The notes beneath the pieces were generated by a model. The model made no database searches. It was not told where the DNA came from and saw nothing but the letters and a program-made list of their open reading frames with translations. A stretch of DNA of 49,950 nt from an uncultured Ilumatobacter sp. (lineage in GTDB: Bacteria; Actinomycetota; Acidimicrobiia; Acidimicrobiales; Ilumatobacteraceae), in NCBI GenBank assembly GCA_937919625.1, contig CALFRK010000091.1, positions 1 to 49,950 on the forward strand. Reading direction: 5' to 3'. Shown here one piece after another: positions 2,169 through 31,158 of this stretch. Made by a program: the position numbers and the translations under genes. Positions within the stretch are counted from its first letter, which is position 1. Each line of letters starts with the position of its first letter.

Positions 2169-2172
2169 TCCA

Positions 2173-3201: not shown

Positions 3202-3285
3202 GTGATTCGTTTCCTTCGCTGTCCGGTCTCGATGGACGTAGTCGGTGGCGGTCGTCGCCGCTGAGATCATGTGATTGCAGTGAGA

Positions 3286-4056: not shown

Positions 4057-4979
4057 TGTTGGCCTCCGTGGAGCAGGGCGTCCATCCGAGATGGGCGGAG
4101 TAGATCGGGTCGCATGCGCAGCGAGAGGGTGTCGTCGGCTCGGTGGAAGGCGATCAGTTCGACCCAGTTGCCGTCCGGGTCGCGAAGTCTCGTCATCTCG
4201 AGTCTGTCGGTGCCGGCGGGTTCGTCCTCGACGGTGAAGCCGGCAGCCTTCGCTCGGGCGAGGTCGGCGTGGAGGTCGTCGCTCTCGAAGGCGAGATGGC
4301 CCGTTCCGGGCGTTTCGTAGTCCGGTTGTTCGGGGGCACCGGTCGGCGGGTTGTGGAACTGCCAGATCTCGACCTTGGCGTTGGTCAGTGGGACCCACGT
4401 GCCCGTGATGTCGACATCGCTGAGGGCCGACAGCCGATCGACCGCAGCGTGCCCTCGCAGGCGGGCCGTGTTCAGTGCCGGAGAGCCGATCAGGTCCTCG
4501 TAGGCGGCGCGAAGACGGTCGACGTCGGGCGTGGCGATCGCCCCGTGCACGAGCCATGGCTCGAGATCGGCGGGAGCGTGCGGCGCCCCTTCGATCTCGG
4601 TGACGAGCTGTTCGGCGTCGCGCACGTACAGGTACTGGAAACCCGTTCCGAGTTCGACCGGATCTGCGTGCGACACGATTCCGGCCGTCGAGGCTCGATC
4701 GGCGACCTGTTCGATGCTGCCGGTCTGGATGCCGGCGTGGGTCACGCCAGGTTCGTTGACTTCTCGGCGTCGGCCGGCCGGAGCGGCGACGCCGACCAGT
4801 TCGATCCACCCGTTCGGGCCCTCCGCTCGGGCGCTGGCCTGCACGTCGCGGCCGGCGACCAGGGGGTCGTCGCCGGCCGCCAGCGATGTGATCGGCCAAC
4901 CGCTCATGGCATGGAGTTGGCGAGCGGTGTGTTCGAGGTCGTGAACAACGCGTCCGACGTGGTGCAACCCGATCAGCAT
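4053..4979 (-). CDS. Two-domain VOC (glyoxalase/extradiol dioxygenase superfamily) protein
   Basis: A 308-residue protein made of two vicinal-oxygen-chelate modules, roughly residues 1-135 and 140-280. Candidate metal ligands are His in IGLHHVGRVV, His in GVTHAGIQ and Glu in GWIELVG in the first module, and His in LVHGAIATPD, His in GTGHLAFESDD and Glu in GNWVELIAF in the second. This arrangement fits a metal-dependent lyase, isomerase or dioxygenase rather than a bleomycin-type binding protein. ATG at 4979 has AGGGG nine bases upstream. It is the first gene of a minus-strand operon whose stop overlaps the SDR start, and it diverges from the SDR at 5242. Confidence 0.8.
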   Translation of the reverse strand: MLIGLHHVGRVVHDLEHTARQLHAMSGWPITSLAAGDDPLVAGRDVQASARAEGPNGWIELVGVAAPAGRRREVNEPGVTHAGIQTGSIEQVADRASTAGIVSHADPVELGTGFQYLYVRDAEQLVTEIEGAPHAPADLEPWLVHGAIATPDVDRLRAAYEDLIGSPALNTARLRGHAAVDRLSALSDVDITGTWVPLTNAKVEIWQFHNPPTGAPEQPDYETPGTGHLAFESDDLHADLARAKAAGFTVEDEPAGTDRLEMTRLRDPDGNWVELIAFHRADDTLSLRMRPDLLRPSRMDALLHGGQQ

Positions 4980-5089
4980 GGTCGCCGCCCCTTATCTGTC
5001 CCGTCGCGGTGGATGAGCGACGGCGTGTAATCCCTCGTGGATGTCGTCATGGCTGAGCCTCTCGGAGCGTCTTCGATCCCGGTGTGCAC

Positions 5090-5119
5090 TTGACACACAC
5101 CTTGTTGGCACGATATCTA
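5090..5119 (+). promoter_or_regulatory. Putative promoter of the SDR at 5242
   Basis: A perfect -35 TTGACA (5090-5095) is followed after 18 bases by TATCTA (5114-5119). The sequence ATCTAATA across the -10 matches seven of eight bases of one arm of the palindrome at 6895-6915, suggesting control by the same repressor, probably the TetR at 6031-6690. The opposite half-site is poor, so the operator claim is weak. Confidence 0.5.
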
Positions 5120-5138
5120 ATAACAAATCCGGCGTCGT

Positions 5139-5162
5139 GTGCAAGTGCAAGTGCAGGTGCAA
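5139..5162 (+). repeat. Tandem hexamer repeat in the leader of the SDR gene
   Basis: Four consecutive 6-base units: GTGCAA, GTGCAA, GTGCAG, GTGCAA. They lie just downstream of the predicted promoter and so in the 5' leader or spacer of the SDR mRNA. Such a tract is prone to slipped-strand length change. Confidence 0.7.
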
Positions 5163-5241
5163 GTACGGCCGGCGAACATCGACGACCAGAACACCGCGGG
5201 CATGATCGACGTGTGCCGGCCAACCGACGAAAGGACGCCAC

Positions 5242-6006
5242 ATGGATCTGCAACTGAGGGGTAAGAGCATTCTCGTGACCGGGGGGAGCCGTGGAATCGG
5301 CCGAGCCACGGTCGAACGGTTGTGTGCAGAGGGTGCCAGGGTGGCGACCTGCGCACGTGGTCAAGAGACGCTCGATGAGGTCGTCGCAGGCCTGCGGGCC
5401 GGCGGTGCTGACGTGATCGGAAACGTGGTCGATGTCACCGACGGCGATGCGCTCGAGAGCTGGATCGAGTCGACGGCGTCGAACTGGGGTGGGATCGACG
5501 GATTCGTCAGCAACGTCTCGGCCCGCGTCTACCGCACCGATCTCGAACGCTGGCAGGAGAACTTCGAGATCGACTTGTTCCAGCACATCCGGGCGATCGA
5601 AGCGGTGCTCCCTCATCTGCGCTCGTCGCAGGGCTCGATCGTGATCGTCTCGTCGATTGCAGCGATGATGTCCCAACTGCCCGATCTCGATCGAGCCTAT
5701 GGACCGATGAAGGCGGCGCTCGCCAGCTACGGATCGCAGCTGGCGCAAATCGAGGGTGCCAACGGTGTGCGCGTCAACTCGGTGTCGCCCGGGCCCGTGC
5801 ACGTCGACGGCGGGTTTTGGGATGAGGTCGGTCAACAACAACCGAAGCTCTACGCCCTGGCCGAGCGGCTCTCGGTGATGGGTCGCCTGGGGCGTCCGGA
5901 GGAGATTGCTGCGGCGATCGCGTTCTTGACGTCACCGCTCAGTTCCTACACGACCGCCGCCAATCTGCACATCGACGGGGGCACCGTGAAATCGGTCAGG
6001 TACTGA
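5242..6006 (+). CDS. SDR family oxidoreductase with atypical NNAG motif
   Basis: A 254-residue SDR. The Rossmann motif TGGSRGIG is near residue 13, the catalytic Ser lies in IVIVSSIAAMM and the Tyr/Lys pair in AYGPMKAAL. The normally conserved NNAG at the end of beta-4 is replaced by SNVSA. This is seen in a subset of SDRs that keep activity, but it is a departure from its neighbours. ATG at 5242 has AAGGA about seven bases upstream. It is transcribed divergently from the VOC/SDR pair and converges on the TetR gene with 24 bases between stops. Confidence 0.83.
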   Translation: MDLQLRGKSILVTGGSRGIGRATVERLCAEGARVATCARGQETLDEVVAGLRAGGADVIGNVVDVTDGDALESWIESTASNWGGIDGFVSNVSARVYRTDLERWQENFEIDLFQHIRAIEAVLPHLRSSQGSIVIVSSIAAMMSQLPDLDRAYGPMKAALASYGSQLAQIEGANGVRVNSVSPGPVHVDGGFWDEVGQQQPKLYALAERLSVMGRLGRPEEIAAAIAFLTSPLSSYTTAANLHIDGGTVKSVRY

Positions 6007-6030
6007 CCGCTCACACGAACCGGCGGGCGG

Positions 6031-6690
6031 TCACGCTCCGAGATCGTCCGCAGCTTGTTCGAGCAACCCATCGAGCGTGAGCCGGCTACTCAGAAAGAAG
6101 ACCTCCTCGATCACGGCGCGGTCGGCGAGGCCCCGAGCGATCAACTCCCACGTGATCTCGCTCGTGCCGTTGAGCAGGCTCGAGTAGACCAGCGCTCGCT
6201 GGCTGTCGATCCCCATCGTTTCCAGCAGACGAGCCCACCACGCGACGTTGTCGCGTTGGACCCGCTTGCGAAGCACTTCGACAGAGGTGTCCAGACTGGG
6301 TTCGGACACCAACCGGTAGAACAGCAAGCCGCCTTGTTCGATCTGGTCGAAGTACCACCGGGTGTTGGCCACGAGGCGGTCCTCGAACAATTGACGGGGT
6401 GGAGTCTCGGTGATGAGCTCGTCGACCGGGGGCATCGGTTCGACGTTCCACAGCGCCGCAACCTCGTTCCACAGCGCCTGCAGGAGACCGCTGCGATTCT
6501 CGAAATATGTGTACGCCAAGGCGCGGGACACACCGGCCGCTCGTGCAAGCGTGTCCATCGTGAGTGCCGCAGCTCCGTCGGACTCCACGATCGATCTGGC
6601 GACGTCGAGAAGGTGCCGGCGGCGATCGTCTGGGGTGAGCCTCGGGCCGACCGGCTCGGTCGCGGTCAGCTGTGGTTCGGTACCTGGCAT
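6031..6690 (-). CDS. TetR/AcrR family transcriptional regulator
   Basis: A 219-residue repressor. The N-terminal helix-turn-helix covers about residues 20-70, with the signature LLDVARSIVESDGAAALTMD, then AGVSRALAYTYFENRSGLL for the recognition helix region. The C-terminal ligand domain is unassigned. ATG at 6690 is used; GTG at 6696 has a better spaced GAGG and is an equal alternative. The longer ORF to 6831 is unsupported. It sits between two promoters that carry related half-sites (perfect palindrome at 6895-6915, degenerate at 5114-5122), so it plausibly represses its divergent neighbour, the enolase-superfamily operon, and perhaps the SDR unit. Confidence 0.86.
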   Translation of the reverse strand: MPGTEPQLTATEPVGPRLTPDDRRRHLLDVARSIVESDGAAALTMDTLARAAGVSRALAYTYFENRSGLLQALWNEVAALWNVEPMPPVDELITETPPRQLFEDRLVANTRWYFDQIEQGGLLFYRLVSEPSLDTSVEVLRKRVQRDNVAWWARLLETMGIDSQRALVYSSLLNGTSEITWELIARGLADRAVIEEVFFLSSRLTLDGLLEQAADDLGA

Positions 6691-6862
6691 GGACACATTC
6701 TGCCTCGTTTCATCACCGAGCAGAGCGGTGACCGGGGAGTTGTCCGGTTGGCAAATCAGTCGAAGGCGGAGAGCACCTCGGCATCGAACCGCTCGGTCTT
6801 TGGGGTGCAGGGGTTGGTTGGCCGCAGACACCGATCAGCGGGCAGGACGGGCACGGGGGCCC

Positions 6863-6891
6863 TTGACAACCTGGACCGGTCCTGTTTAGGT
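6863..6891 (+). promoter_or_regulatory. Putative promoter of the dehydratase-to-GH42 operon
   Basis: TTGACA at 6863-6868 is followed after 16-17 bases by the weak -10 TTTAGG/TTAGGT (6885-6891). Transcription would begin inside the palindrome at 6895-6915, a classic arrangement for repression. Confidence 0.5.
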
Positions 6892-6894
6892 GGC

Positions 6895-6915
6895 TATTAG
6901 ACGCTGTGTCTAATA
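6895..6915. promoter_or_regulatory. 21-bp palindromic operator
   Basis: A perfect inverted repeat with 8-base arms TATTAGAC and GTCTAATA and a 5-base spacer. It lies at the expected transcription start of the operon beginning at 6940 and 205 bases from the TetR start. Arm length and spacing suit a TetR-family dimer (a GntR-type site would also look similar). It is the most regular palindrome in the catabolic half. Confidence 0.75.
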
Positions 6916-6939
6916 AGACTGTCGAGTCAGGCGGCTCTC

Positions 6940-8145
6940 GTGAAGCTCACCAATGTCAAGTCGTACGTGATCAAGACTGACGCTCCACACCTCGGTGGAT
7001 TGCTCTGGTACTTCGTGAAACTCGAAACCGACGAGGGCTACGAGGGGTGGGGTGAAACCGCTGTCCTGTCCACGCTGATGGGCCTTGAGGATGGCTACGA
7101 GGCGATGGTAAGAGGCGTGTTCGACACCCATCTCAAGGGCGAGGACGCATTGGGTCCTGAGACGATATACAACAAGCTCTACACCTCTCTGACCGCCCGC
7201 CATCCCGACTACGTGATGCAGGGCATCATCAGCGCATTCGACATCGCCCTGTGGGATATCTGCGGCAAGTTCTACAAGACGCCCGTCTACAACTTGCTCG
7301 GCGGCAAGTGCCGCGACCGGATCCGCACCTACACCTACATCTACGACCTCGAGGCGCAGGGCGGCCTGCGTGCCGCGGCAGGCAGCTGGACCACCGATCC
7401 TGATCGGCTGGCCGTTCTGGCCGCTGGTCTCGTCGACGAGGGGTTCACGGCTCTGAAGTTTGACCCCGTGCCACAGCAGAAGCTGAAGCAGGGCATGCGG
7501 CCCCCCTTCGAGCTGTCGCTGGCCGAATACGAACACGCCGACAAAGCGGTTGGAGCGATCCGTGACGCCGTCGGCAACCGCGCCGACATCCTGATCGGCA
7601 CACACGGGCAGATCACACCATCGGCAGCCCGCCGGTTGGCGGCGAGAATCGAGCATCACGATCCGTTGTGGCTCGAAGAGCCCTGCCCGCCCGAGAACTA
7701 TCAGCAGATGGGCCGGATTGCCCAGAGCACGACGATTCCGGTCGCCACCGGTGAGCGGCTCGTCACGCCGTACGAGTTCCAGAACCTCTTCGCCGAAGGG
7801 GCGTGCGCGTTCGCCCAGCCCGACTTGGGAAGCTGCGGTGGGATCACGGCGTGCAAGAAGATCTCGAACATTGCCGAAGCGAACTACGTGCTGATGGCCC
7901 CGCATGTGTGGGGAGGGCCGGTGATCACCGCGGCAGCGCTACAGATCGACGCCAATGTTCCCAACTTCCTGATCCAGGAGAGCATCTACAAGTCGCGCGG
8001 GTTCTTCGACGAGATCGTGAAGGAACCGTTCGAGTGGGAGAGCGGTGACCTGATCGTCTCTGACCGGCCAGGTATCGGCATCGAGCTCGACGAAGACAAG
8101 CTCGAGGGCTATCGAGGCAGGTTCGTCGATTTCGCGACCTACTGA
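6940..8145 (+). CDS. Mandelate racemase/muconate lactonizing enzyme family protein (galactonate-dehydratase-like)
   Basis: A 401-residue enolase-superfamily enzyme: alpha/beta capping domain (residues 1-125) and a TIM barrel. Features include FDIALWDICGK, K173-x-D175 in ALKFDP, E246/E247 in LWLEEP, E272 in ATGERL and the catalytic-type His322 in MAPHVWGG. In D-galactonate dehydratases the metal ligands are spaced Asp-26-Glu-26-Glu. Here E246 and E272 fit, but the Asp position is G220, in IGTHGQ, whereas H222 is kept. The family abstracts a proton alpha to a carboxylate, so an aldonate or anhydro-aldonate is expected. It starts with GTG at 6940 and leads the operon that ends in GH42. Dehydratase or cycloisomerase activity cannot be chosen from sequence alone. 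Confidence 0.8.
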   Translation: MKLTNVKSYVIKTDAPHLGGLLWYFVKLETDEGYEGWGETAVLSTLMGLEDGYEAMVRGVFDTHLKGEDALGPETIYNKLYTSLTARHPDYVMQGIISAFDIALWDICGKFYKTPVYNLLGGKCRDRIRTYTYIYDLEAQGGLRAAAGSWTTDPDRLAVLAAGLVDEGFTALKFDPVPQQKLKQGMRPPFELSLAEYEHADKAVGAIRDAVGNRADILIGTHGQITPSAARRLAARIEHHDPLWLEEPCPPENYQQMGRIAQSTTIPVATGERLVTPYEFQNLFAEGACAFAQPDLGSCGGITACKKISNIAEANYVLMAPHVWGGPVITAAALQIDANVPNFLIQESIYKSRGFFDEIVKEPFEWESGDLIVSDRPGIGIELDEDKLEGYRGRFVDFATY

Positions 8146-8221
8146 TCCCCAAGTAACACCGTGTGATCAGCCCGCAGCTGCGAACACGACAGACATCAAC
8201 TCGTTGTCGAGGTGACACAGA

Positions 8222-9682
8222 ATGAGTGCGCTGAGCGTCAGAATCGGGTTCGTTCCCTCGTATCGACCGTACGGACCGATACCGCCGTGGGTCGTCTCGA
8301 TGAGAGCGAGCGCGATCGCCGCCCTCGAACAGATCGAAGGGCTCACGCTCGTCTTCCCGAAGATCCATCCCGAGGACCCCACCACCACCGATGGCGTCGA
8401 GGGCTTCTCCCCGGATGGCTGCGTCTGCAACCTGGATGAGGCCGATGCCGTCGCCGAATATTTCATGCATCAGAAGGTTGACGCCATCATTGTCGGTGCC
8501 ATGAATTTCGGCGATGAGCGGTCGGCGATCAAGGTCGCCGAGCTGCTCGATGTGCCGACGTTTCTCTACGCCACGAAAGAGCCGCCGGCCCTCGAGAACC
8601 GGTCGTTGGCACGCCAATCCGACTCGTACTGCGGCACGATCGCGATCGCCGCAGGCCTGTATCGCCGGAGACTCCACTATCACTTCGGCGGCATCTTCTT
8701 CCACGATGAGTCAGAGTTCACCGAATCGATCGACACCTTCGTGCGAGCGGTCGCTGTCAAGAAGTCGCTGTTCAATGCCCGCATCGGACAGATCGGTGTC
8801 CGTCCCCAGACTTTCGAGTCGGTCGGCTTCGACGAGATCGCGATGGCCCGCAAGTTCAACCAGAACGTGATCTATTCCGAGCTGTCGGCATTGGTGAACC
8901 AAGCCCAAGACCTCGCCGACGACGACCCTCGTGTCGTCGTCTTGATCGACGCCATGCACAGCTCTGCTCAACAGATCACGGTGACGGAAGATTGGGTCGT
9001 CAAGGCAGCCAAATTGGAGGCCACGATCGCCGAGTTCTGGAGAGTCAACAAGCTCAGCGCCGTGTCGATCCAGTGTTGGCCGGTCATCCAACGCTCATGG
9101 GGTATGTCCGTGTGCGCTGTGCTGGGCAGTCTCACGGGGAAGGGAATGCCGGTCGCCTGTGAGGCGGACACGATGGGAGCGTTGGCAATGCTGGCGGGGT
9201 ACAGCGCCGGGCTGGGAACGACCGACCCACACTTCGTCGACTGGACCATTCAGCATCGTGACAACCCCAATCGGTTCCTCTCGTGGCATTGCGGGAATGC
9301 CCCAGTCAGCTTGGCCGCCGCCGAGCAGCCAGTCGCGCTCCGGTCGCGTGTCGACATGGTCGGCGACGGACAGCCGACCGAGAACGACGTGATGGCGGGT
9401 CTGTACCAGTTCCAGATCAAGCCTGGCGACGTCACGTTCTGCCGTTTGAGCGAAGTCGGCGATCAGTGGAAGATGCTGATCGTCCCCGGCCGAGTCGTTC
9501 CCTCCGACGAGGTGTTGAACGGCACCTGGGCCTGGATCGAGGTGCCGGATCACGAGCGCCTGTATCGCTCGATCGTGGAGAATGGTTTCATCCACCATGC
9601 CAGCATGGCCCACGGCAACCAGGTGGAGAGCCTGTCGTTGGCGTGCAAGCTGATGGACATCGAGCCTGTGATCGTCTGGTAG
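8222..9682 (+). CDS. L-fucose/L-arabinose isomerase-like ketol isomerase
   Basis: A 486-residue protein with the overall plan of the FucI/AraA isomerase fold. The C-terminal half contains the diagnostic CEADTMGALAML (E314) and SWHCGNAP (H356), which with an Asp near D340 are the likely Mn2+ ligands. The N-terminal half has the Rossmann-like segment VDAIIVGAMNFG. Members interconvert aldoses and ketoses. With a PfkB kinase and class II aldolase immediately downstream, an aldose-to-ketose step on the sugar released by GH42 is the simplest role, for example galactose to tagatose or a fucose-like sugar. It has an excellent ribosome binding site (GAGGTGA, six bases before ATG). Confidence 0.8.
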   Translation: MSALSVRIGFVPSYRPYGPIPPWVVSMRASAIAALEQIEGLTLVFPKIHPEDPTTTDGVEGFSPDGCVCNLDEADAVAEYFMHQKVDAIIVGAMNFGDERSAIKVAELLDVPTFLYATKEPPALENRSLARQSDSYCGTIAIAAGLYRRRLHYHFGGIFFHDESEFTESIDTFVRAVAVKKSLFNARIGQIGVRPQTFESVGFDEIAMARKFNQNVIYSELSALVNQAQDLADDDPRVVVLIDAMHSSAQQITVTEDWVVKAAKLEATIAEFWRVNKLSAVSIQCWPVIQRSWGMSVCAVLGSLTGKGMPVACEADTMGALAMLAGYSAGLGTTDPHFVDWTIQHRDNPNRFLSWHCGNAPVSLAAAEQPVALRSRVDMVGDGQPTENDVMAGLYQFQIKPGDVTFCRLSEVGDQWKMLIVPGRVVPSDEVLNGTWAWIEVPDHERLYRSIVENGFIHHASMAHGNQVESLSLACKLMDIEPVIVW

Positions 9683-9688
9683 GTCGCC

Positions 9689-10654
9689 GTGACAAGCCCA
9701 ACCGTGGTGGGCGTCGGGCTCAGCACGCTCGACATCGTTCAACGACTCGAACACCTACCGACCTGGGACAACCCAGGCAGGATCGATGACATCTTGTTCG
9801 ATGGCGGTGGACCGGCCGCGACCGCTCTGGCCACGGTCTCTCGCTTCGGCGAACGCACGGGATTCGTCGGCACGGTCGGCAACGACTGGGTGGGTGAGGT
9901 CAAACTTCGCTCATTGCGCGAACACGGCGTCGATGTCACACGTGTCCGTTCGCGTGACCAACCGGAGACGCAGGTCATCTTCTGCTACGTCGACTCGCGC
10001 TCGGGTGAACGGATCTTCTCGGGGTCGAAGGACTTCGGGCGTGATCCGCTTCGGGTAGCCGAACTCGACGAGGCGTACATCGCGGGCGCCGAACTCCTGC
10101 ACATGGACGGATTTCATCACGAAGCAGCACTCCAGGCAGCGCGATGGATGAAGGCGGCAGGGAAGACGGTGGTGCTCGACGGATCCGCTGTGTCCGGCAA
10201 CACGCTTCCACCACAGTTCGCCGCATTGGTCGAATTCACCGATGTTCTGGTGTGCGGCGACGGGTTCGTGCAGGCCCTGACCGGACACGACGACGACATC
10301 GCGGCCGCGACGTCGGCGCTCGAACGCGGGCCGGAGATCGTGGTCATCACCAAGGGCGCCGAGGGCAGTCATCTCGTGACTGCCTCAGAACGGCTCGTTG
10401 CGCCTGCCTTCCCCATCGACGTCGTCGACACCACCGGTGCAGGCGATGTGTTCCATGGCGCATTCATCTATGGCCTGCTCCAGGATTGGTCCCTGGACCA
10501 GGTCCTCGAGTTCTCCTCGGCGACAGCGGCGCTCGCGTGCACCCGACTCGGCGGCCGAGCAGGAATCCCCACACTTGCGGAAGTTCTGCTCCTCCTGCAG
10601 GAACACGCGACCACTCGGCGCGTGCAACACCACGATCGAGAGGCAGATCGATGA
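9689..10654 (+). CDS. PfkB-family carbohydrate kinase
   Basis: A 321-residue ribokinase-fold sugar kinase. It shows the N-terminal PfkB glycine motif FDGGGPAATALA, VGTVGNDWVG, and the C-terminal signature D247-TTGAGD, where D253 is the catalytic base. The tail CTRLGGRAGIPTL resembles the ketohexokinase/sulfofructose-kinase-like branch. GTG at 9689 with AGG just upstream begins six bases after the isomerase stop. The aldolase start overlaps its stop by four bases (ATGA). Likely role: phosphorylation of the ketose made by the isomerase. A 2-keto-3-deoxy-aldonate kinase role is the alternative, because KDG kinases share this fold and an enolase-family enzyme is in the same operon. Confidence 0.85.
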   Translation: MTSPTVVGVGLSTLDIVQRLEHLPTWDNPGRIDDILFDGGGPAATALATVSRFGERTGFVGTVGNDWVGEVKLRSLREHGVDVTRVRSRDQPETQVIFCYVDSRSGERIFSGSKDFGRDPLRVAELDEAYIAGAELLHMDGFHHEAALQAARWMKAAGKTVVLDGSAVSGNTLPPQFAALVEFTDVLVCGDGFVQALTGHDDDIAAATSALERGPEIVVITKGAEGSHLVTASERLVAPAFPIDVVDTTGAGDVFHGAFIYGLLQDWSLDQVLEFSSATAALACTRLGGRAGIPTLAEVLLLLQEHATTRRVQHHDREADR

Positions 10655-11505
10655 GTCTCGTCCGTATCAAGGACCACCTCGAAGCAGCAAGGGCAGGCGG
10701 CTACGCGATTCCGCTGATCGACGTCTTCGAGATGCAGGGGGCACGAGGAACGTTCGACGCGATCGCTGAGAAACAGGCGCCGGCGATCGTTGCGGTGTAC
10801 GCGCACCTGATCGACCTTCCGGACGCCGAGGCATTCGCGGCGTACTTGAAGATGATGGCGGAACGCGTTGCTGCCCCGGTGTCGGTCATGCTCGACCACG
10901 GCGAGAACGTCGAGCAATGTCTGAAGGCGATCTCGCTCGGGTTCACGGACGTCATGTACGACGGCTCGAAGTTGCCGATCGCCGAGAATGTCTCGAAGAC
11001 GCTCGAGGTCGTTGCCGCTGCGCGGCCACTCGGCATCGGAGTCGAGGCTGAGTTGGGCCATGTCGGGAATGCCGCCGACTACGCCGACTTTGCCGCCAAG
11101 CGCCAGGGTTTCACCGATCCCGAGAGTGTCGTTCCGTTCCTCGAAGCGACCGGCGTCGACTACTTGGCGGTCGCGTTCGGAACAGCCCATGGCGTGTTCA
11201 AGGGCGACCCGCAACTCGATCTCGAGCTCTTCAAGCACATCGCATCCCTGGTGGATGTCCCTCTGGTCATGCATGGTGGGTCAGGCCTGACGGACGAGCA
11301 GTTCACGGCCGCCATCGCCGCCGGCGTGGCGAAGATCAATGTGGCAACCAACTTGGTCATCGGCGCCAGCAAGGCAATGAAGAAGGAGGCAGCTGGTGAC
11401 GCTGCCAACCTGTTCACGATCAGCACTGCAGCTCGCAAGGCCTACAAGGACGGCGTCGGCGGGGTGCTCGAACTGTTCGGTAGCGCAGGCAAGGCGGCGG
11501 CGTGA
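10651..11505 (+). CDS. Class II (zinc) ketose-bisphosphate-type aldolase
   Basis: A 284-residue class II aldolase of the FbaA/GatY/KbaY group. Catalytic Asp and first Zn ligand are D82-H83 in MLDHGE, followed by E134 in VEAELGHVG, H180 in FGTAHG and H208 in MHGGSG; the phosphate loop is GGSGLTD with INVATN near the C terminus. The family cleaves ketose phosphates to dihydroxyacetone phosphate and an aldehyde. Coupled to the preceding kinase, it would split a ketose 1-phosphate or bisphosphate such as a tagatose ester. ATG at 10651 overlaps the kinase stop; the mutarotase start follows directly. Confidence 0.87.
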   Translation: MSLVRIKDHLEAARAGGYAIPLIDVFEMQGARGTFDAIAEKQAPAIVAVYAHLIDLPDAEAFAAYLKMMAERVAAPVSVMLDHGENVEQCLKAISLGFTDVMYDGSKLPIAENVSKTLEVVAAARPLGIGVEAELGHVGNAADYADFAAKRQGFTDPESVVPFLEATGVDYLAVAFGTAHGVFKGDPQLDLELFKHIASLVDVPLVMHGGSGLTDEQFTAAIAAGVAKINVATNLVIGASKAMKKEAAGDAANLFTISTAARKAYKDGVGGVLELFGSAGKAAA

Positions 11506-12494
11506 TGAAGTTCGGCTACGACGTCGGCACCCACCCTGATTTCGCCAAGGAGACGGTGAGTCTCTACGGCGAGGACGACGCCGGCGAGCGACAGATCGAG
11601 ATCACCTATTCCCCGCAGATGGGCTGCAACATGTTCAGCCTGCTGCACGACGGGATCGAGTACCTCCTGGACACAACGTCGACCGCCCAGGGGCCGGCCT
11701 TGCTGGGATCTCCGATCTTGTATCCCAGCCCGAACCGGATCCGGAACGCCCGTTTCGAATTCGACGACCGCCAGTTCTGCTTCGAGCCGAACGACGGCAC
11801 GAACTTCCTGCACGGGCTGGTGGCGAAGACCGCATGGACGGGCGAGACACCAGAACCCGTTGACGATGGCATTGCGGTTCGCAACTCGATCTCGTTTGTC
11901 CCCGGTTCGGACCTGTACGAGCAGTTTCCGATACAGCATCGTTTGGAGCTGACGTACACCCTTCACGAGAATCGAGTCAGCCTGGACTTCGCTGTGATCA
12001 ATCTCGACGACACACACCGGCTCCCGTTCGGCCTGGGGATACATCCATACTTCAACCTGATCGGCACTCGTGACGACGTCAGGCTGGATGTGCCGGCCAG
12101 GAAGTGGATGGAGGCCACGGATCTGCTGCCATCCGGTCGCCTCGTCGATCTTGCGAACAGCCCCGGAGATTTCCGTGAACCGAAGTTGCTGTCGGAGCTC
12201 GATCTGGATGATGTCTTCTGGGGGCTCGAACCTGATCTCCCGCAGGTCATCTACTACGAGAACATCGGCGTCCGTCTGACGCTGTCCGCTTCGGACATCT
12301 TCACCCACACCTGCATCTTCTGCCCGCCCAAGTACCCGATCTTCTGCGTCGAGAATCAGACGTGCTCGGCCGATGCACACAATCTCTACGCCCAAGGGTT
12401 CACCGAGGAGTCGAATCTGTTGATTCTCGAACCGGGAGAGAGCCGCGCGGGCCGGATCGAGATCCGCATTGACGAGATTGGGCTGGCGCCCTGA
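11505..12494 (+). CDS. Aldose 1-epimerase (mutarotase) family protein
   Basis: A 329-residue beta-sandwich galactose-mutarotase-like protein. Signature features are the arginine in PSPNRIRN, the catalytic His in NFLHGL, a second His in GLGIHPYF and a catalytic Glu candidate near the C terminus in LILEPGES. It interconverts alpha and beta anomers, supplying the anomer preferred by kinase or isomerase. ATG at 11505 shares one base with the aldolase stop (TGATG); GTG at 11502 is also possible. The stop again overlaps the GH42 start, so the six-gene operon is tightly coupled from 9689 on. The exact sugar is unknown; galactose is favoured by the neighbouring galactosidases. Confidence 0.84.
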   Translation: MKFGYDVGTHPDFAKETVSLYGEDDAGERQIEITYSPQMGCNMFSLLHDGIEYLLDTTSTAQGPALLGSPILYPSPNRIRNARFEFDDRQFCFEPNDGTNFLHGLVAKTAWTGETPEPVDDGIAVRNSISFVPGSDLYEQFPIQHRLELTYTLHENRVSLDFAVINLDDTHRLPFGLGIHPYFNLIGTRDDVRLDVPARKWMEATDLLPSGRLVDLANSPGDFREPKLLSELDLDDVFWGLEPDLPQVIYYENIGVRLTLSASDIFTHTCIFCPPKYPIFCVENQTCSADAHNLYAQGFTEESNLLILEPGESRAGRIEIRIDEIGLAP

Positions 12495-14563
12495 TGTTCT
12501 ATGGAGTTGCGTACTACCCAGAGCACTGGCCGGAGGAAGACTGGGAACGTGATGCCGGCAATATTCGCGAGTGCGGTATGGACGGTGTCCGGATCGGCGA
12601 GTTCGCCTGGTCCAGGATGGAGCCAGAGGAAAGCGTCTTCAGTTTCGATTGGCTGGATCGAGCGATCGACACACTCGGCGAGGCAGGCCTGCAAGTGATC
12701 CTGGGCACTCCAACAGCGACACCTCCATCGTGGCTCGTGCACAAACACCCGGAAATCCTGCCGATCGATGTCAACGGCGTTCAGATGAAGAACGGGGTGC
12801 GCAAGTACTACTGCCACTCCAACATGACCTACCGGGACTACTGCCGAAAGATCGCCACCGAACTCGCCCAACGTTACGGGGACAATCCACACGTGGTGGG
12901 CTGGCAGGTCGACAACGAGTTCGGAGATCACGACACGACGAGGTGCTACTGCCAGTACTGTCGCCAAGCGTTCATCGACTGGTGCCAGAAGAAATACGGC
13001 TCCGTCACCGAGATGAACAGTGCCTGGGGCACCGTCTTTTGGAGTCAGGAGTACTCAGCGTGGGCTGAGATCGATCTGCCGTACCCACGCCGCGAGATCG
13101 GATTGAATCCCAGCCACCTGCTCGACTACTACCGGTTCGCTTCCGATCAGGTGGTGAGCTTCTGCCAGAACCAGGTGTCGGTCCTGCGCGACACCATTTC
13201 GGAACGGCAGTGGTTGACGACGAATGTGATCGCGACGTACTGGGAGATCGACCTTCACGACCTGGCTGAGCAGCTCGACTTCATCAGTTGGGACTGCTAC
13301 TCCGTGATCGACGCCATGTCGCCGGTGCGTCACCCGAGCGTGGGCCCGGCTCCTCCGATCAACTGGCCGGCTCGTCCCGAGATGTACTCGCTGGTGCACG
13401 ACATGATGCGCAGTGTCACGAAGCAGCCGTTCTGGGTGATGGAGACCGCTGGCGAGGACCGACTCGTGTCGTATCACACGCTTGCGCACGGGGGAGGAGG
13501 CGTCAACTTCTTTCGATGGAGAGGTTCTCGGTTCGGTGCTGAGCAATCTCGAGGAGGGTTCGAATACCACGGCGTGTTGGGCGATCGTTTTCACGAAGAC
13601 CATGAACTCTCGTCGGAACTGGACCGGCTCAGAGCTCCCTTGGCCTCAACGGAGTTCTCAGCCCAAGTCGGGCTGCTGTTTTCGTTCGACATGGGCTGGG
13701 CCTACGACATCAACTTTGTCTATCCGCGGTCGACGTGGATCGATGGTGTCGGATACTGGCGGCTTCTCGAGGAGTACTACGGAGCGTTCTGGAGAGAGAA
13801 CATCTCGATCCAGCCACTGGGAGCCGACGACGATCTCACGCGATACCCAGTGCTCGTGGTTCCATGCTTGTATCTGACCAGTGCTGCGATCAACGCCAGG
13901 TTGAGCGAGTATGTGGAACAGGGCGGCACGCTGATCGTCGGGCCGGCGTCGGGAACCAAGGATTGGAGCAACGTCTACCTCGACGCGCTCCCACCTGACG
14001 GTGAACTGAAGACCGTGTTCGGCTGCGAGTTGATCGGCTCGGGCCACGTCGGCTCATTCGAAGACGTGTTGAAGGTGACCATGACTCCTGATGCACCGTT
14101 TGCCTGCGACCGGGAATTCTCGATCAAGTCGGAATCGACTGGAGTGTTCGGAGCCTTCGACCCCAGGCGGCCAGCAGAGGTGCTGCGCCCGACGACGGCG
14201 CGTGTGTTCGGCTATTTCTCCACGGGTCAGCCGGCTTGCACGATCAATCGGTATGGAAGTGGGATCGCCGTCTACCTCGGATTCAGTCCCGATGGGAACC
14301 TCATGCGCGAGCTGATCGGCTGGCTCGAGGCTGAGCAGAAGGTGAGTCCTTTGATGAAGACCCCGGATGGTGTGGAGGTGACCGTCCGGAAAGGTGAACA
14401 CACCGAGGTGGTCTTTGTCGTCAACCACACCTCATCGGCGACCACCGTACGTTTGGACAGGACCTACAAGGACTTGGTCCGAGACTGCGTCTTGCCGGAT
14501 CTCGTGGAGATCGCCCCCCATCACACCCTGGTGCTCGCGGAGGTTCGCTCGGCGGGGCGGTGA
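12494..14563 (+). CDS. GH42 beta-galactosidase
   Basis: A 689-residue glycoside hydrolase family 42 enzyme with the usual three domains: catalytic TIM barrel (1-390), trimerisation/Rossmann-like domain (about 395-610) and C-terminal beta domain. The acid/base is E142 in WQVDNEFG and the nucleophile E317 in FWVMETAGED. Cysteines C107, C151, C153 and C156 match the zinc cluster known in GH42. No signal peptide is visible, so hydrolysis is cytoplasmic, acting on imported beta-galactosides. ATG overlaps the mutarotase stop (TGATG). It is the last gene of the operon and converges on the GH36 gene. Confidence 0.92.
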   Translation: MFYGVAYYPEHWPEEDWERDAGNIRECGMDGVRIGEFAWSRMEPEESVFSFDWLDRAIDTLGEAGLQVILGTPTATPPSWLVHKHPEILPIDVNGVQMKNGVRKYYCHSNMTYRDYCRKIATELAQRYGDNPHVVGWQVDNEFGDHDTTRCYCQYCRQAFIDWCQKKYGSVTEMNSAWGTVFWSQEYSAWAEIDLPYPRREIGLNPSHLLDYYRFASDQVVSFCQNQVSVLRDTISERQWLTTNVIATYWEIDLHDLAEQLDFISWDCYSVIDAMSPVRHPSVGPAPPINWPARPEMYSLVHDMMRSVTKQPFWVMETAGEDRLVSYHTLAHGGGGVNFFRWRGSRFGAEQSRGGFEYHGVLGDRFHEDHELSSELDRLRAPLASTEFSAQVGLLFSFDMGWAYDINFVYPRSTWIDGVGYWRLLEEYYGAFWRENISIQPLGADDDLTRYPVLVVPCLYLTSAAINARLSEYVEQGGTLIVGPASGTKDWSNVYLDALPPDGELKTVFGCELIGSGHVGSFEDVLKVTMTPDAPFACDREFSIKSESTGVFGAFDPRRPAEVLRPTTARVFGYFSTGQPACTINRYGSGIAVYLGFSPDGNLMRELIGWLEAEQKVSPLMKTPDGVEVTVRKGEHTEVVFVVNHTSSATTVRLDRTYKDLVRDCVLPDLVEIAPHHTLVLAEVRSAGR

Positions 14564-14611
14564 GGGTTTGGCCTGTGGGGGCCACGGCTGAAGCACAACA
14601 CAATGCTGGAT

Positions 14612-16720
14612 TCAGCTGGTGAGGCGAATCAACACCGCTGTGTCGGGGTGCATCGCAGGGGGTTGGATGCCGATCGTTGCGAGCATCAGCCCCGTCACAT
14701 GGGCACCGGCACTACACCAGCGCGGCTCGGTGCGCCCGGCGCCGCCTCGTTCGCCCGGGAGCCGCAAGCGCTCGACGCGGTACGTGCGATCGGGGTCGAG
14801 ACCCGGCAGCAGTAGTGGTGGAGGCGTGAGGCTGATTGCCGTCGCGATCGTGGCGAACGACACGATCGCCTCGCTGCGATCGGTCGCGTACACGCCATGT
14901 GCGACGTAGGCCGGCTCGGTGTCGAAGCGAACCGCGTCGCCACCGTGCAGGAGCGGACGGAGCCGCTGGTGGAGTGCGATCACCTCGGCGAGCGCATCGA
15001 GCTCGGTGTCGTCCAACGAGAGCAGATTCCACTCGACACCGAGATGACCGAACAGCGCCGTCGCTGCACGAAACGCGAGGTCGTGGCGGCGGCCGGTGGT
15101 GTGCGAGCGCTCGGGACCGACGTGGGCGCCCATCAGCTCGGGCGGGATCAGCATCGACGCGCCGCGCTGGATCGTCTGACGTTCGAGCGCATCGTTGCAG
15201 TCGCTGGTCCACACCCGTTCGGTGCGACGCAGGATCTCGTGGTCGATCCGAGCTCCGCCCGACGAGCACGATTCGATCTCGACGCCGGGATGTCGCGAAC
15301 GAAGCTCGTCGATGAGTCGGTAGGTCGCCGACGTCTGGGCATGTGTGCCGGCTGCCCCGTCGGCGTTCGAACCACCGATGTGGTCACGGTTCATGTCCCA
15401 CTTGACATACGCGATGTCGTGGTCGCTGAGTAGCGCGTCGAGTTGGCCGAGCACGTGCTCGAACGCTTCCGACCGGGCGAGGTCGAGCGCCAGTTGGTGA
15501 CGCGACAGTACGGGTTCGTACCCGTCGGTCGTGAGCGCCCACTCGGGGTGCGCCCGATAGAGCTCGCTGTCGGGGTTGACCATCTCGGGCTCGACCCAGA
15601 TGCCAAAGTCCATACCGAGCCCTTGCACATGCTCGATCAGCGGACTGAGACCGTTCGGGTGTGCGTCGGTCGACACCTCCCAGTCGCCGAGACCCGAGCG
15701 GTCGTCACGCCGAGAGCCGAACCAGCCGTCATCGAGCACGAACCGCTCGATACCCACGCGTGCAGCGCGGTCGGCGAGGGTCCGCAGCGTGTCGAGATCG
15801 TGGTCGAAGTACACCGCCTCCCAGGTGTTCACCAGCACGGGCCGCGCCGAGGTGGGGTGGGTGGTCCGCGCTCGCAGGTGCCGGTGGAACTGCTGCGTGG
15901 CCGGCGTGAGGCCACGATCGCTGTGCACGGCGATCACCTCGGGGGTGCGGTACGACGCGCCGGGTTCGAGCGAGAGCTCGCCGGGGTGCAGCAGCTCGCC
16001 GAGCTGTACGTATCGACGTCCGTCGGGCAGCCGTTCGGCGAAGATCGTGTGGTTGCCGCTCCATGCCAGGTGGGCGCCCCACACCGAGCCCCGCCACTCT
16101 CCGAAATCGGGTGTGCCGGCAAACACGAGTGGCGGGTGTTCGTGGGACGTGCGACCGCGCCGGTTCTCGGTGGTGTGGGCGCCGTGGGACCATGGAATCC
16201 GCACCGGGTGGAACTCGCGGGTCCAGCGACCAGCGAACGACCCGAGCTCGCCGGCGTGTTGCGGCACGGGAAGAGTGATCGTGAGCGCGTCGAGCAGGTA
16301 GCGCTCATCGGTGCTGGTGTTCGTCAACTCGGCCCACACGAGCAAGGTGTGATCGAGCTCGAACGTGACATCGAGATCGAGCCCTGCGATCTCGTCGCGG
16401 GAGTGGACCACCAGCCGGTTGCCGTCGAGCTCGTACCCGACGCCGTCGATCGGCGCCGCGAAGCGAGGTGCCCACGCCGTGCCGCGCCGGCGATGGCCGA
16501 GCAACCCCGGTCGGCCGGTGTGGCCCGATCCGTGCTCGGGTACGACGGGGAGCGGGCCGACGACGTCGGCCGAGCCGTGTACCAGCGGGCGTTCGATCAC
16601 CGCCGTGAGATCGTCGATGTCGCCGAGGCGGTCGATCGGCGCGCCCCAGTGCACGATCGTCGGCGCACCCGTCGACACGTCGACGAGCACGTCACTCGTG
16701 CGCCCTCTGAGATGGATCAT
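14612..16720 (-). CDS. GH36 alpha-galactosidase
   Basis: A 702-residue family 36 enzyme of normal length. It has an N-terminal beta-supersandwich (about 1-320), a catalytic barrel containing ERFVLDDGWFG, the nucleophile Asp near residue 442 in YVKWDMNRD and the acid/base Asp near residue 507 in VWTSDCNDALER, then a C-terminal beta domain. The conserved SCSSGGARID is present. No signal peptide is seen. ATG at 16720 is four bases after the stop of the PhyH oxygenase gene, so the two form one operon; an upstream extension of the ORF is unlike the family. It releases galactose from alpha-galactosides such as melibiose, raffinose or, in marine settings, floridoside. Confidence 0.93.
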   Translation of the reverse strand: MIHLRGRTSDVLVDVSTGAPTIVHWGAPIDRLGDIDDLTAVIERPLVHGSADVVGPLPVVPEHGSGHTGRPGLLGHRRRGTAWAPRFAAPIDGVGYELDGNRLVVHSRDEIAGLDLDVTFELDHTLLVWAELTNTSTDERYLLDALTITLPVPQHAGELGSFAGRWTREFHPVRIPWSHGAHTTENRRGRTSHEHPPLVFAGTPDFGEWRGSVWGAHLAWSGNHTIFAERLPDGRRYVQLGELLHPGELSLEPGASYRTPEVIAVHSDRGLTPATQQFHRHLRARTTHPTSARPVLVNTWEAVYFDHDLDTLRTLADRAARVGIERFVLDDGWFGSRRDDRSGLGDWEVSTDAHPNGLSPLIEHVQGLGMDFGIWVEPEMVNPDSELYRAHPEWALTTDGYEPVLSRHQLALDLARSEAFEHVLGQLDALLSDHDIAYVKWDMNRDHIGGSNADGAAGTHAQTSATYRLIDELRSRHPGVEIESCSSGGARIDHEILRRTERVWTSDCNDALERQTIQRGASMLIPPELMGAHVGPERSHTTGRRHDLAFRAATALFGHLGVEWNLLSLDDTELDALAEVIALHQRLRPLLHGGDAVRFDTEPAYVAHGVYATDRSEAIVSFATIATAISLTPPPLLLPGLDPDRTYRVERLRLPGERGGAGRTEPRWCSAGAHVTGLMLATIGIQPPAMHPDTAVLIRLTS

Positions 16721-16724
16721 TCGG

Positions 16725-17615
16725 TCAGGAGTCTGCCCGATAGCTCGAGTGCAGGTCGAGTGGCACGTGGGTGCTGCCCGTGAGCTGAGGTGGGATGGGC
16801 TGCAGGATCTTGCGTCGCTCGGGTGTGAGTCGGCCGAGCAAACCGTCGGACAGCGTGTAGCCGAAGCGAGGCCGCGACCACGGTGGGCCGTACCGCAAGA
16901 TGATGACCCGGCGCTCGCCGTCGTTGGTGCGGCTGGATCCACCGTGCAGGCAGGCGTCGACGAACAACAGGGCATCGCCCGCGTTCGCGTACACGGGCTC
17001 GGCCCATGGCAGATCGTCCATCCGGTCGCCACGGGCGTAGTCGCCGATCAGAGGGTGCGACAGGTTCTGCTTGTGACTGCCAGGGACGATCATCGTCGGC
17101 CCATCGCCGGGGCCGATGTCGCGCAGGGCGATGAGGACGTTCAGCTGGCCGCACCGAAACCGACCGTTGCGGTACCCGTACTGGGTGCGGATCGAGGCGT
17201 CGTGGCCTCCCGAGTGCACCGGGTGGTGGCCGCCGCTGGTGCGAATGGTGGCGATCGCCTCGTCGATCATCGTGCCCTGTACATAGGTGCCCTCCTCGCC
17301 GGCGTAGCGGAGCGCATGGCCGACCCACGAAGGGTGGTCGATCAGCACGTCGAACGCCGGGTCGCCACAATCGAGCAGGTTGTGCAGCTCGAATCCGGTG
17401 TCGGCGGTGTAGTCGCGGCGTTGGGCGTTGCCGTACCACTCACCGTTGTCGAGTTCGGGGAATCGGTCGTAGGCGTCGTTGAGCGATGCCACTTCGGCGG
17501 CCGACAGCGCTCCGTGAACCACGAGGTAACCGCGCAGATCGAATTCGTAGTCGTCGAGGATGGTGGGTCGGCCAACCGGTGTTGCACCGGTCCGAGCGAG
17601 AGAGATGTTGCTCAC
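16725..17615 (-). CDS. PhyH-family Fe(II)/2-oxoglutarate dioxygenase in the galactosidase operon
   Basis: A 296-residue PhyH-type oxygenase. The core includes RCGQLNVLIALRDIGPGDG, MIVPGSHK and LLFVDACLHGGSSRT. The distal metal His is H224, a 2-oxoglutarate Arg candidate is R235 or R236, and the proximal ligand is probably H134 or H138 in HSGGHD. It is only distantly like the PhyH protein at 2173-3201. The GTG start at 17615 lacks a ribosome binding site but has TATTCT seven bases upstream, the pattern of a leaderless transcript. It is first in a two-gene operon with the GH36 alpha-galactosidase and is divergent from the DeoR regulator. Oxidation or demethylation of a sugar or aglycone is inferred from context only. 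Confidence 0.8.
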   Translation of the reverse strand: MSNISLARTGATPVGRPTILDDYEFDLRGYLVVHGALSAAEVASLNDAYDRFPELDNGEWYGNAQRRDYTADTGFELHNLLDCGDPAFDVLIDHPSWVGHALRYAGEEGTYVQGTMIDEAIATIRTSGGHHPVHSGGHDASIRTQYGYRNGRFRCGQLNVLIALRDIGPGDGPTMIVPGSHKQNLSHPLIGDYARGDRMDDLPWAEPVYANAGDALLFVDACLHGGSSRTNDGERRVIILRYGPPWSRPRFGYTLSDGLLGRLTPERRKILQPIPPQLTGSTHVPLDLHSSYRADS

Positions 17616-17676: not shown

Positions 17677-18486
17677 GTGAATGAAAGTCGAAGGTCGCCT
17701 CAGCAGACCCATCTCCCCGCCGAGATGAGGTTGGTTCTGATCCAGCAGTTGCTGGAGCAACGCGGCTTCGTGCGCGTTCGTGATCTGTCCGATCGGTTCG
17801 GTGTCAGCACCGTGACGGTCCGCAATGATCTGCAAGTGCTCGAAGAACGCCAGATGGCGTTCCGCGTGCACGGTGGAGCGATGCCGTTCAACGGGGCGCG
17901 AGGTGAACGCCCGTTCGAGGAAGTCGCGGAACGACAGACCGAGCAAAAGGCAGCGATCGCCAAGCTCGCAGCATCTCTGGTCTCGAACGGCGAGACGATC
18001 ATCGTCGACGTCGGTACGACGGCCGCCTCGCTCGCCCATGCGCTGGTCGATCGGACCGACCTGACCGAGCTGACCGTGATCACGAGCGGCCTCAAGGTCG
18101 CCTTGTCGCTCGAAGCGGCGCACCCGAGGTTCTCCGTCGTCGTCACGGGCGGCACGCTGCGTCCCAAGCAGCACTCGCTGGTCGAGCCGCTGGCCACCTC
18201 GATGTTCGAGAAGTTGCGGGCCGACACCGTCTTCGTCGGCTGCAACGGCATTTCGATCGACGGTGGCGTCACGAATGTCAACCTGCCCGAAGCGGCCGTG
18301 AAGCGTGCGATGATCGCCGCCGCCGCTCGCTGCGTGGTACTCGCCGACAGTACCAAGCTCGGCGTCCGGGCCCTGGCGCCGGTCTGCACGCTCGACGAGA
18401 TCGATGTGCTCGTCACCGACACGGGCGCCGAACCATCCGAGCTCGAAGCGATTCGTGAACGAGGAGTCGACGTCGTCACGGTGTAA
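17677..18486 (+). CDS. DeoR/GlpR family transcriptional regulator
   Basis: A 269-residue sugar-responsive repressor. The N-terminal winged helix-turn-helix (about residues 18-70) contains the hallmark VSTVTVRNDLQVLE and VHGGA. The C-terminal sugar-phosphate isomerase-like sensor domain has IVDVGTTAASLA, VVVTGGTLR, FVGCNGISIDGGVTN and CVVLADSTKLG. GTG at 17677 has AAGGA eight bases upstream. Its location, directly ahead of the ABC importer and divergent from PhyH/GH36, points to control of both units by a phosphorylated sugar made inside the cell, for example galactose 1-phosphate or a ketose phosphate. Confidence 0.92.
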   Translation: MNESRRSPQQTHLPAEMRLVLIQQLLEQRGFVRVRDLSDRFGVSTVTVRNDLQVLEERQMAFRVHGGAMPFNGARGERPFEEVAERQTEQKAAIAKLAASLVSNGETIIVDVGTTAASLAHALVDRTDLTELTVITSGLKVALSLEAAHPRFSVVVTGGTLRPKQHSLVEPLATSMFEKLRADTVFVGCNGISIDGGVTNVNLPEAAVKRAMIAAAARCVVLADSTKLGVRALAPVCTLDEIDVLVTDTGAEPSELEAIRERGVDVVTV

Positions 18487-18603
18487 GCCGCCTGACGGCA
18501 CAACAGATCGTCCAGGTCCTCGACCCGGCCGAAACCGGCCCACATGCGTGGGCGGGGGAGCAACCGGCGACAGATCCCGTCGCCACCGACCAAGGAGTAC
18601 ACA

Positions 18604-20025: not shown

Positions 20026-20052
20026 TCGTCACTTGATCAGCTGCTAATCAGT

Positions 20053-20086
20053 GGGTCGGGGCCGAGCGAGAGCTCGGCCCCGACCC
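20053..20086 (+). terminator. Strong hairpin between binding-protein and permease genes
   Basis: A perfect 15-bp GC-rich stem (20053-20067 with 20072-20086) closed by a GAGA tetraloop, without a T-run. Located 28 bases after the substrate-binding protein stop and inside an operon, it probably stabilises the upstream mRNA end or partially terminates, giving excess binding protein over permease as is common in such importers. Confidence 0.8.
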
Positions 20087-20146
20087 GACCAATCTGTGTG
20101 CCGAGCGCGAGCCTGGCGTACCGACTACTGAACTCCGGGGGGACTC

Positions 20147-23061: not shown

Positions 23062-23073
23062 AGGATCGATCCC

Positions 23074-24326: not shown

Positions 24327-28130
<3,804 letters not shown>

Positions 28131-30930: not shown

Positions 30931-31158
30931 GACGTACGAATCGGTGTGACCCAGGCCGCTCGCGAGATCTCGTTGGAGGTGGAAGACGCAACACGCGAAG
31001 ATCTCAAGGCGCGCGTCGAGGCTGCCCTCAGCGGCGCCACTGACGTGTTGTGGATCACCGACAAGCGCGGCAAAGACGTCGGCGTGCCATCGGCCAAGAT
31101 TGCCTATGTCGAAGTCGGCTCGGCAGACGGCGAACGTCGCATCGGATTCGGCGGCTGA
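30928..31158 (+). CDS. DUF3107 family protein
   Basis: A 76-residue actinobacterial protein beginning VDVRIGVTQAAREISLEVED and ending AKIAYVEVGSADGERRIGFGG, which fits DUF3107. Function is unknown. It is small, acidic and has no membrane segment. The GTG start is probably leaderless. Its stop shares a base with the ATG of the first ArsA-like gene (TGATG), so it opens a four-gene operon of DUF3107, two ATPases and a methyltransferase. From memory the family lies near the pdtaS/whiB1 region in mycobacteria, which agrees with the neighbours here. Confidence 0.82.
   Translation: MDVRIGVTQAAREISLEVEDATREDLKARVEAALSGATDVLWITDKRGKDVGVPSAKIAYVEVGSADGERRIGFGG

Follow-up and report, generated by a model that had tools for sequence, protein, structure and literature searches.

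An uncultured Ilumatobacter sp. (Ilumatobacteraceae) carries adjoining genes for an aldose-ketose isomerase of the FucI/AraA superfamily, a PfkB-family kinase and a class II aldolase, a cassette that recurs in three phyla. The genes lie on contig CALFRK010000091.1, of which positions 1-49,950 were analyzed (the window), and are followed there by an aldose 1-epimerase (mutarotase) gene and a GH42 beta-galactosidase-family gene. On balance, we lean slightly toward a mechanism in which the products of a six-gene operon would process a galacto-configured aldose by way of a ketose 1-phosphate. The first-pass annotation had outlined isomerization, phosphorylation of the ketose and retro-aldol cleavage to dihydroxyacetone phosphate (DHAP). 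This logic is supported by the near-invariant isomerase-kinase pair, by the aldolase gene often being the third, and by beta-galactosidase-type glycosidases beside the pairs of two other loci (L081 and L085; loci are numbered with L, genomes with G).

Conservation of the isomerase-kinase-aldolase core

Isomerase copies were grouped by identity into a near set (25 copies at least 50% identical, from 20 genomes including that of the window, the others being Chloroflexota and Armatimonadota) and a far set (29 loci at most 40% identical, three of which have less than 1 kb of room). Neighboring genes were located by tblastn, with distances taken between alignment ends. In the near set, the kinase lies at most 63 nt downstream of the isomerase in 22 of the 23 assessable copies; the count leaves out L082 and L084, where the contig end is reached. 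The exception is L083, in which the two are 2989 nt apart. The aldolase occupies third place in 11 of the 18 genomes that could be assessed (loci L058 and L084 are too short). Of the 29 far-set loci, 1 has a kinase match (36% identical, 1320 nt away) and none has the aldolase.

The epimerase and GH42 genes are local to the window locus. Relatives of these two proteins were detected beside the isomerase in 0 of the 19 other genomes (tblastn, E ≤1e-12, within roughly 7-8 kb, a distance that several loci do not span). The first-pass annotation had suggested looking for all five genes together in other genomes, and this co-conservation failed (0/19), while the three-gene core was present in 10 of the 19. 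In four Chloroflexota genomes (G833, G1101, G1107 and G1108; loci L078, L126, L127 and L128), a tandem isomerase-kinase-aldolase-isomerase-kinase arrangement stands behind a LacI gene, as though a single aldolase served two sugars.

In the isomerase tree, 24 near sequences formed one clade that contained nothing else. Since the printed support was 0.50 and midpoint rooting may have shifted the labels, we rely on identity and gene neighborhood rather than on the tree.

Active-site features of the core enzymes

Domains were assigned with Pfam family cut-offs in 40 window frames, and equivalogs with NCBIfam. Both the Fucose_iso_C domain and the fold place the isomerase in the FucI/AraA superfamily. 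Its AlphaFold model, of middling confidence (mean pLDDT 71.8), matches L-arabinose and L-fucose isomerases with Z 22-25, at a whole-chain rmsd of about 22-25. The top 19 rows of the structure comparison (VIA) are all AraA, D-arabinose isomerase or FucI, and the next row has Z 10.3. By sequence, no solved relative was significant with a single query (best E 0.51) or with a profile. All 22 of 22 orthologues keep E314, D340, H356 and H459, a putative metal-ligand set (Glu, Asp/Glu, His). The sole NCBIfam match at E ≤1e-5 is the sulfoquinovose isomerase SftI (NF048012), and the score of 128 bits lies well under the cut-off of 700. On the same model, two near and eight distant isomerases taken from other loci score 98-155 bits, so the SftI label carries no special link.

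The kinase is a PfkB-family member in which DTTGA, at residues 247-251, occurs in all 21 orthologues with residues there; we take DTTGAGD to be the motif of this family. Its nearest structure in the PDB is the sulfofructose kinase YihV (7ag6, E 2.8e-35), and YdjH is also among the matches. The positions of Lys27, Asn109 and Arg138 of YihV, presumably its sulfonate-binding residues, align with P29, G112 and F142 of the window kinase. Among the orthologues the three YihV residues are found in 0/22, 0/21 and 0/22 cases, respectively, with L033 having Arg at the first position. By these residues, the kinase would not be a sulfofructose kinase of the YihV type. It also stays under the cut-offs for IolC (130.9 bits against 300) and tagatose kinase (NF049991, 97.9 bits against 420).

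The aldolase is a class II enzyme in which D85, H86, E137, H183 and H211, the presumed metal and catalytic residues, are kept in 10 of 10 orthologues. The nearest PDB entry is 7ncc, followed by E. coli YdjI (6ofu). The tagatose-bisphosphate aldolases 8q57 and 8q58 have an Arg that we take to bind the distal phosphate. At this position the window has Val, the ten orthologues have A, F, M, Y or L, never Arg or Lys, YdjI has Cys, and 7ncc and 7nc7 have Gln. The score on the tagatose-bisphosphate aldolase model TIGR01858 was 192 bits, against a cut-off of 443.55. A kinase lacking the sulfonate residues and an aldolase lacking the Arg together favor a ketose 1-phosphate whose far end has neither phosphate nor sulfonate, and cleavage of such a compound by the aldolase is predicted from these residues with moderate confidence.

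Proposed pathway and substrate

In the mechanism we favor, GH42 would free the sugar from a beta-galactoside-type glycan, the epimerase would supply the needed anomer, and the isomerase, judged by its family, would convert the free aldose to a ketose. The PfkB kinase would then phosphorylate the ketose at C1, a position inferred from the ketose 1-kinase YihV being the nearest among solved structures. The class II aldolase would split the ketose 1-phosphate into DHAP and an unphosphorylated aldehyde. The sixth protein, an MR/MLE enolase-superfamily member encoded upstream, might handle the acid of the operon sugar or of the aldehyde, which is a guess.

A galacto-configured sugar is favored by the GH42 and mutarotase of the operon, by the nearby GH36, GalK and GalT genes, and by glycosidases at other near loci. 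To find the latter, 26 hand-chosen flanking frames of near loci were put to Pfam. In L081, a GH2 beta-galactosidase lies about 50 nt after the kinase. In L085, a GH42-like protein (a partial match of 36 bits) is encoded divergently from the isomerase; tblastn with the window GH42 did not detect it. L034 and L086 have GH123 proteins upstream of the isomerase-kinase pair. GH123 enzymes act on beta-N-acetylgalactosaminides. About 4 kb upstream in L087 lies a Gfo/Idh/MocA protein that matches the C-terminal domain of GH109. None of these matches is from a Chloroflexota locus, and the 21 other chosen frames matched no glycosidase catalytic family. Among distant isomerases, that of L098 stands beside GH42 and GH1 and that of L097 beside GalK. 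The L098 run (689-11583) comprises a binding protein and a ROK-like regulator (both assigned by eye), permeases, GH42, GH1, the distant isomerase and an FGGY kinase, and is likely its own pentose or galactoside cluster.

As a tentative first choice, the route would run from D-galactose through D-tagatose and tagatose 1-phosphate to DHAP and glyceraldehyde. L-arabinose (yielding glycolaldehyde), D-fucose and a C6-modified galactose would be open alternatives, L-arabinose because AraA enzymes accept both this sugar and galactose. It is possible, though doubtful, that the cassette represents a natural, dedicated non-Leloir galactose pathway via tagatose 1-phosphate, distributed as three genes over Chloroflexota, Armatimonadota and a single Actinomycetota lineage. 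It would comprise a new galactose isomerase of the AraA/FucI superfamily, a new tagatose 1-kinase of the PfkB family and a class II aldolase for ketose 1-phosphates. If true for galactose, this would provide a natural galactose isomerase, which is wanted for making tagatose, and an entry of galactose to glycolysis without UDP-sugars. If the substrate is another aldose, solving the cassette would name the functions of three enzyme subfamilies together.

Several observations weigh against a galactose-type ketose-1-phosphate route. In 7 of the 18 assessable genomes there is no aldolase beside the isomerase-kinase pair; of these aldolase-less cases, G444 has a 43% identical aldolase elsewhere, and nothing beyond weak matches was found anywhere in G447 and G450. 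The Leloir genes at the same locus make a second galactose route look redundant. In the Armatimonadota loci L034, L037 and L085, genes for a further MR/MLE protein and for an aldehyde dehydrogenase stand after the kinase and may form an acid branch. The glycosidase neighbors, coming from 26 chosen frames and not from an exhaustive scan, are a lead and not a statistic. Loss of the Arg by itself is no proof of a monophosphate substrate, since 7ncc and 7nc7 also lack it and are labeled fructose-bisphosphate aldolases. No operon protein reached an equivalog cut-off in NCBIfam. Finally, a candidate continuation of the pathway lost weight. In L033 (12449-16784) and L036 (4314-6756), genes for a DUF4147 kinase and an enolase-like protein follow the aldolase, which suggested conversion of glycerate to 2-phosphoglycerate and phosphoenolpyruvate. 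The enolase copy beside these operons seems to lack what we take to be the canonical motifs and looks catalytically altered. Since such motifs seem to be missing and similar pairs recur away from the isomerase, the DUF4147/enolase-like genes are no proof of a glyceraldehyde product. As a counterweight, the L033 enolase scores 309.8, above the eno cut-off of 300, and is the sole enolase match found in its genome, G446.

DUF4147 kinases occur in 9 of 9 searched isomerase-bearing Chloroflexota (1-7 copies) and in 0 of 8 Armatimonadota. None was found in the window's genome or in the two genus mates searched (0/2), and a PF02595 glycerate kinase is present in all three. Low-scoring enolase paralogues were also seen in the Chloroflexota G445, G446, G448, G449 and G833, in several places near a DUF4147 gene.

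Alternative pathways

The same entry could be followed by a second phosphorylation elsewhere, with the aldolase cleaving tagatose or fructose bisphosphate. There are precedents: the aldolase of known bacterial tagatose routes is described as acting on a bisphosphate (PMC10101011), and haloarchaeal fructose 1-phosphate as being phosphorylated again (PMC11519228). However, the Arg of 8q57/8q58 is lost in 11 of 11 aldolases (the window and ten orthologues), and no second kinase is found in the window operon or the conserved core, the host genome not having been searched for a 1-phosphofructokinase. We regard this route as unlikely.

Sulfoglycolysis was the first lead, given the SftI and YihV matches, but lost ground once scores and residues had been compared. 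The operon would in this case encode a hybrid sulfo-Embden-Meyerhof-Parnas (sulfo-EMP) pathway, with an SqvD-type isomerase, a YihV-type kinase and an SqiA-type aldolase, converting sulfoquinovose or, given the GH42, sulfofucose to DHAP and sulfolactaldehyde. In favor of this reading, the isomerase has SftI as its sole NCBIfam match, the kinase has sulfofructose kinase as its best PDB match, and hybrid enzyme sets are on record in Proteobacteria and Actinobacteria (PMC12890257). Nevertheless, we consider a sulfosugar substrate highly improbable. The isomerase is far under the SftI cut-off, where other isomerases score alike, and the presumed sulfonate residues of YihV are missing in the window kinase and every orthologue. 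Unlike sulfo-EMP clusters, the window has a GH42, and the 40 of its frames put to Pfam contain no sulfoquinovosidase, aldehyde dehydrogenase or sulfolactaldehyde enzyme, the rest of the genome not having been searched. Some known sulfo-EMP clusters also have no glycosidase (PMC8873060), and sulfofucose breakdown is described as an oxidative route of the Entner-Doudoroff type (PMC12421959).

A locus that looks like a sulfosugar cluster was seen on a Chlorohelix plasmid (L147, NZ_CP128401.1 69356-84543), where a FucI/AraA-type isomerase adjoins a PPi-type phosphofructokinase; an SSADH-type dehydrogenase and a nitrite/sulfite reductase are encoded nearby. The isomerase of this Chloroflexota plasmid is only 27% identical, a further point against a sulfosugar.

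A De Ley-Doudoroff-like oxidative route, with the MR/MLE protein as galactonate dehydratase and the PfkB enzyme as 2-keto-3-deoxygalactonate (KDGal) kinase, would suit both the match of the MR/MLE protein to galactonate dehydratase and the gene order of L034, L037 and L085, but is very unlikely: the kinase accompanies the isomerase whether an MR/MLE gene is present or not, it scores 27-74 bits on 2-keto-3-deoxygluconate and KDGal kinase models, below ribokinase and the 5-dehydro-2-deoxygluconokinase IolC (about 131-133) and sulfofructose kinase (125), and the operon has no aldolase of the 2-keto-3-deoxy-6-phosphogluconate type.

Comparison with known systems

The first-pass annotation did not recognize this combination of families. 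According to the literature consulted, the sulfo-EMP2 pathway has a FucI-family isomerase (SqvD), a PfkA-family kinase (SqiK), a class II aldolase (SqiA) and a mutarotase, and in a Yersiniaceae sulfo-EMP cluster SqvD and SqiA replace YihS and YihT (PMC9594981). This hybrid presumably keeps the PfkB kinase YihV, and sulfo-EMP/sulfo-EMP2 enzyme hybrids are reported in Proteobacteria and Actinobacteria (PMC12890257). Like these clusters (SqvD/SftI, SqiK or YihV, SqiA, SqvB or YihR), the window operon has a FucI-superfamily isomerase, a ketose 1-kinase, a class II aldolase leading to DHAP and a mutarotase. Since hybrid sulfo-EMP clusters already hold this known combination of families, its novelty had been overstated. 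The set of isomerase, kinase and aldolase subfamilies looks like an uncharacterized relative of the fucose and sulfosugar routes.

The L-fucose route (FucI-FucK-FucA) similarly uses an isomerase, a 1-kinase and a retro-aldol reaction to DHAP and an unphosphorylated aldehyde. FucK is an FGGY kinase and FucA an AraD-type aldolase, whereas the window has a PfkB kinase and a class II aldolase of the fructose-bisphosphate aldolase type. E. coli YdjH/YdjI also combine a PfkB kinase with a class II aldolase, YdjI being without the Arg as well; the Ydj cluster differs in containing dehydrogenases and no isomerase. In inositol breakdown, the PfkB kinase IolC and the class II aldolase IolJ yield DHAP from a substrate formed by another route. 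Unlike that system, the window has a kinase under the IolC cut-off, and no other inositol gene was seen in it.

The tagatose routes (GatY/KbaY, TagK) share the logic from galactose to tagatose and the use of a class II aldolase. As described in PMC10101011, they proceed through a bisphosphate and, for galactose, depend on an introduced arabinose isomerase, in an E. coli strain evolved and engineered to use galactose via L-arabinose isomerase and tagatose, whereas the window contains a natural operon. In the open-licence literature we found no natural galactose-via-tagatose case of this kind and no characterized member of the isomerase-kinase-aldolase cassette; the relevant papers concern sulfoglycolysis and tagatose engineering.

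Operon organization and probable regulation

The five tightly coupled genes described by the first-pass annotation are all present on the + strand, each above its Pfam cut-off (Table 1). A 6-nt gap separates isomerase and kinase, the aldolase ATG at 10651 forms an ATGA overlap with the kinase stop, the epimerase overlaps the aldolase by 4 nt, and GH42 overlaps the epimerase by 1 nt. That annotation did not include the MR/MLE gene, which is co-directional and ends 76 nt before the isomerase. A six-gene operon is a better view given this upstream gene and, before it, a palindrome and a divergent TetR gene; the MR/MLE gene is probably the first of the six. The best NCBIfam match of its product is galactonate dehydratase (PRK14017, 245.7 bits, under the cut-off of 311), and the nearest PDB entry is 4e4u.

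Table 1. Features of the window, with gene starts as called mechanically.
Feature	Positions	Strand	Basis
TetR-family regulator, divergent from operon	6031-6831	-	Pfam TetR_N 39.6 bits (cut-off 24); start not fixed
Operator-like perfect 8+8 palindrome TATTAGAC-N5-GTCTAATA	6895-6915	no strand	Between TetR gene and MR/MLE gene
MR/MLE enolase-superfamily protein, probable sugar-acid dehydratase	6940-8145	+	Pfam MR_MLE_C 204.5 bits
FucI/AraA-superfamily aldose-ketose isomerase	8222-9682	+	Pfam Fucose_iso_C 51.6 bits (cut-off 29.3)
PfkB-family kinase, probable ketose 1-kinase	9689-10654	+	Pfam PfkB 149 bits
Class II (metal) ketose-phosphate aldolase	10651-11505	+	Pfam F_bP_aldolase 264 bits
Aldose 1-epimerase family (mutarotase)	11502-12494	+	Pfam Aldose_epim 121.8 bits
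GH42 beta-galactosidase family	12494-14563	+	Pfam GH42 389 bits, plus GH42M (trimerisation) and GH42C (C-terminal) domains
GH36 alpha-galactosidase family, convergent neighbor	14612-16900	-	Pfam Melibiase 401 bits; positions are those of the scanned stretch, without a fixed start
DeoR regulator and sugar ABC importer (binding protein, two permeases, MalK-type ATPase)	17677-24255	+	Pfam; context
Galactose-1-phosphate uridylyltransferase (GalT-type, Leloir)	24327-25181	+	Pfam; context
Galactokinase family (GalK-type, Leloir)	29707-30864	-	Pfam; context

The operon is probably regulated. The palindrome is the sole match in the window when up to 3 mismatches are allowed; over 100 shuffles the mean was 0.01 matches, one shuffle having a match. 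In the TetR frame, the DNA-binding domain starts at residue 74. A consensus scan of 6700-15000 found no sigma-70-type promoter.

The nearby Leloir genes reported by the first-pass annotation, of GalT and GalK type, were both found in the window. A DMFA2_C (dimethylformamidase beta-like) protein (28153-29697, - strand) adjoins GalK, and at 31050-33283 two neighboring frames each match ArsA-type ATPases, the second being present in 17 of 20 relatives from the genus, family and order.

Distribution and origin

None of the 60 searched relatives from the genus, family and order has the isomerase at E ≤1e-20. By contrast, 7 of 9 genus mates carry the flanking ArsA-type gene at 70-84% identity; in one it is 39% identical, and another gave no match. 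Since this gene is kept while the isomerase is missing in relatives, the contig belongs to the host, and the isomerase was apparently acquired. Of 395 other genomes drawn from the phylum, 39 carry an isomerase relative at E ≤1e-20. The best-scoring one is 38% identical over almost the full length, and two fragments at contig ends reach 42% (190 residues) and 51% (98 residues).

The closest full-length relatives found, at 52-59%, are from Chloroflexota and Armatimonadota (7 of 9 loci; the scan was pattern-based and can miss others). Isomerases at least 52% identical are rare, occurring in 2 of 400 Chloroflexota and 10 of 251 Armatimonadota genomes (each count includes its centre), and reach 7 of 15 genomes in one Chloroflexota order. 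On Sodalis and Rahnella plasmids (L145 and L146), genes for a two-part transketolase, a FucI/AraA-type isomerase and an FGGY-type kinase are consecutive behind a ribose-type ABC importer.

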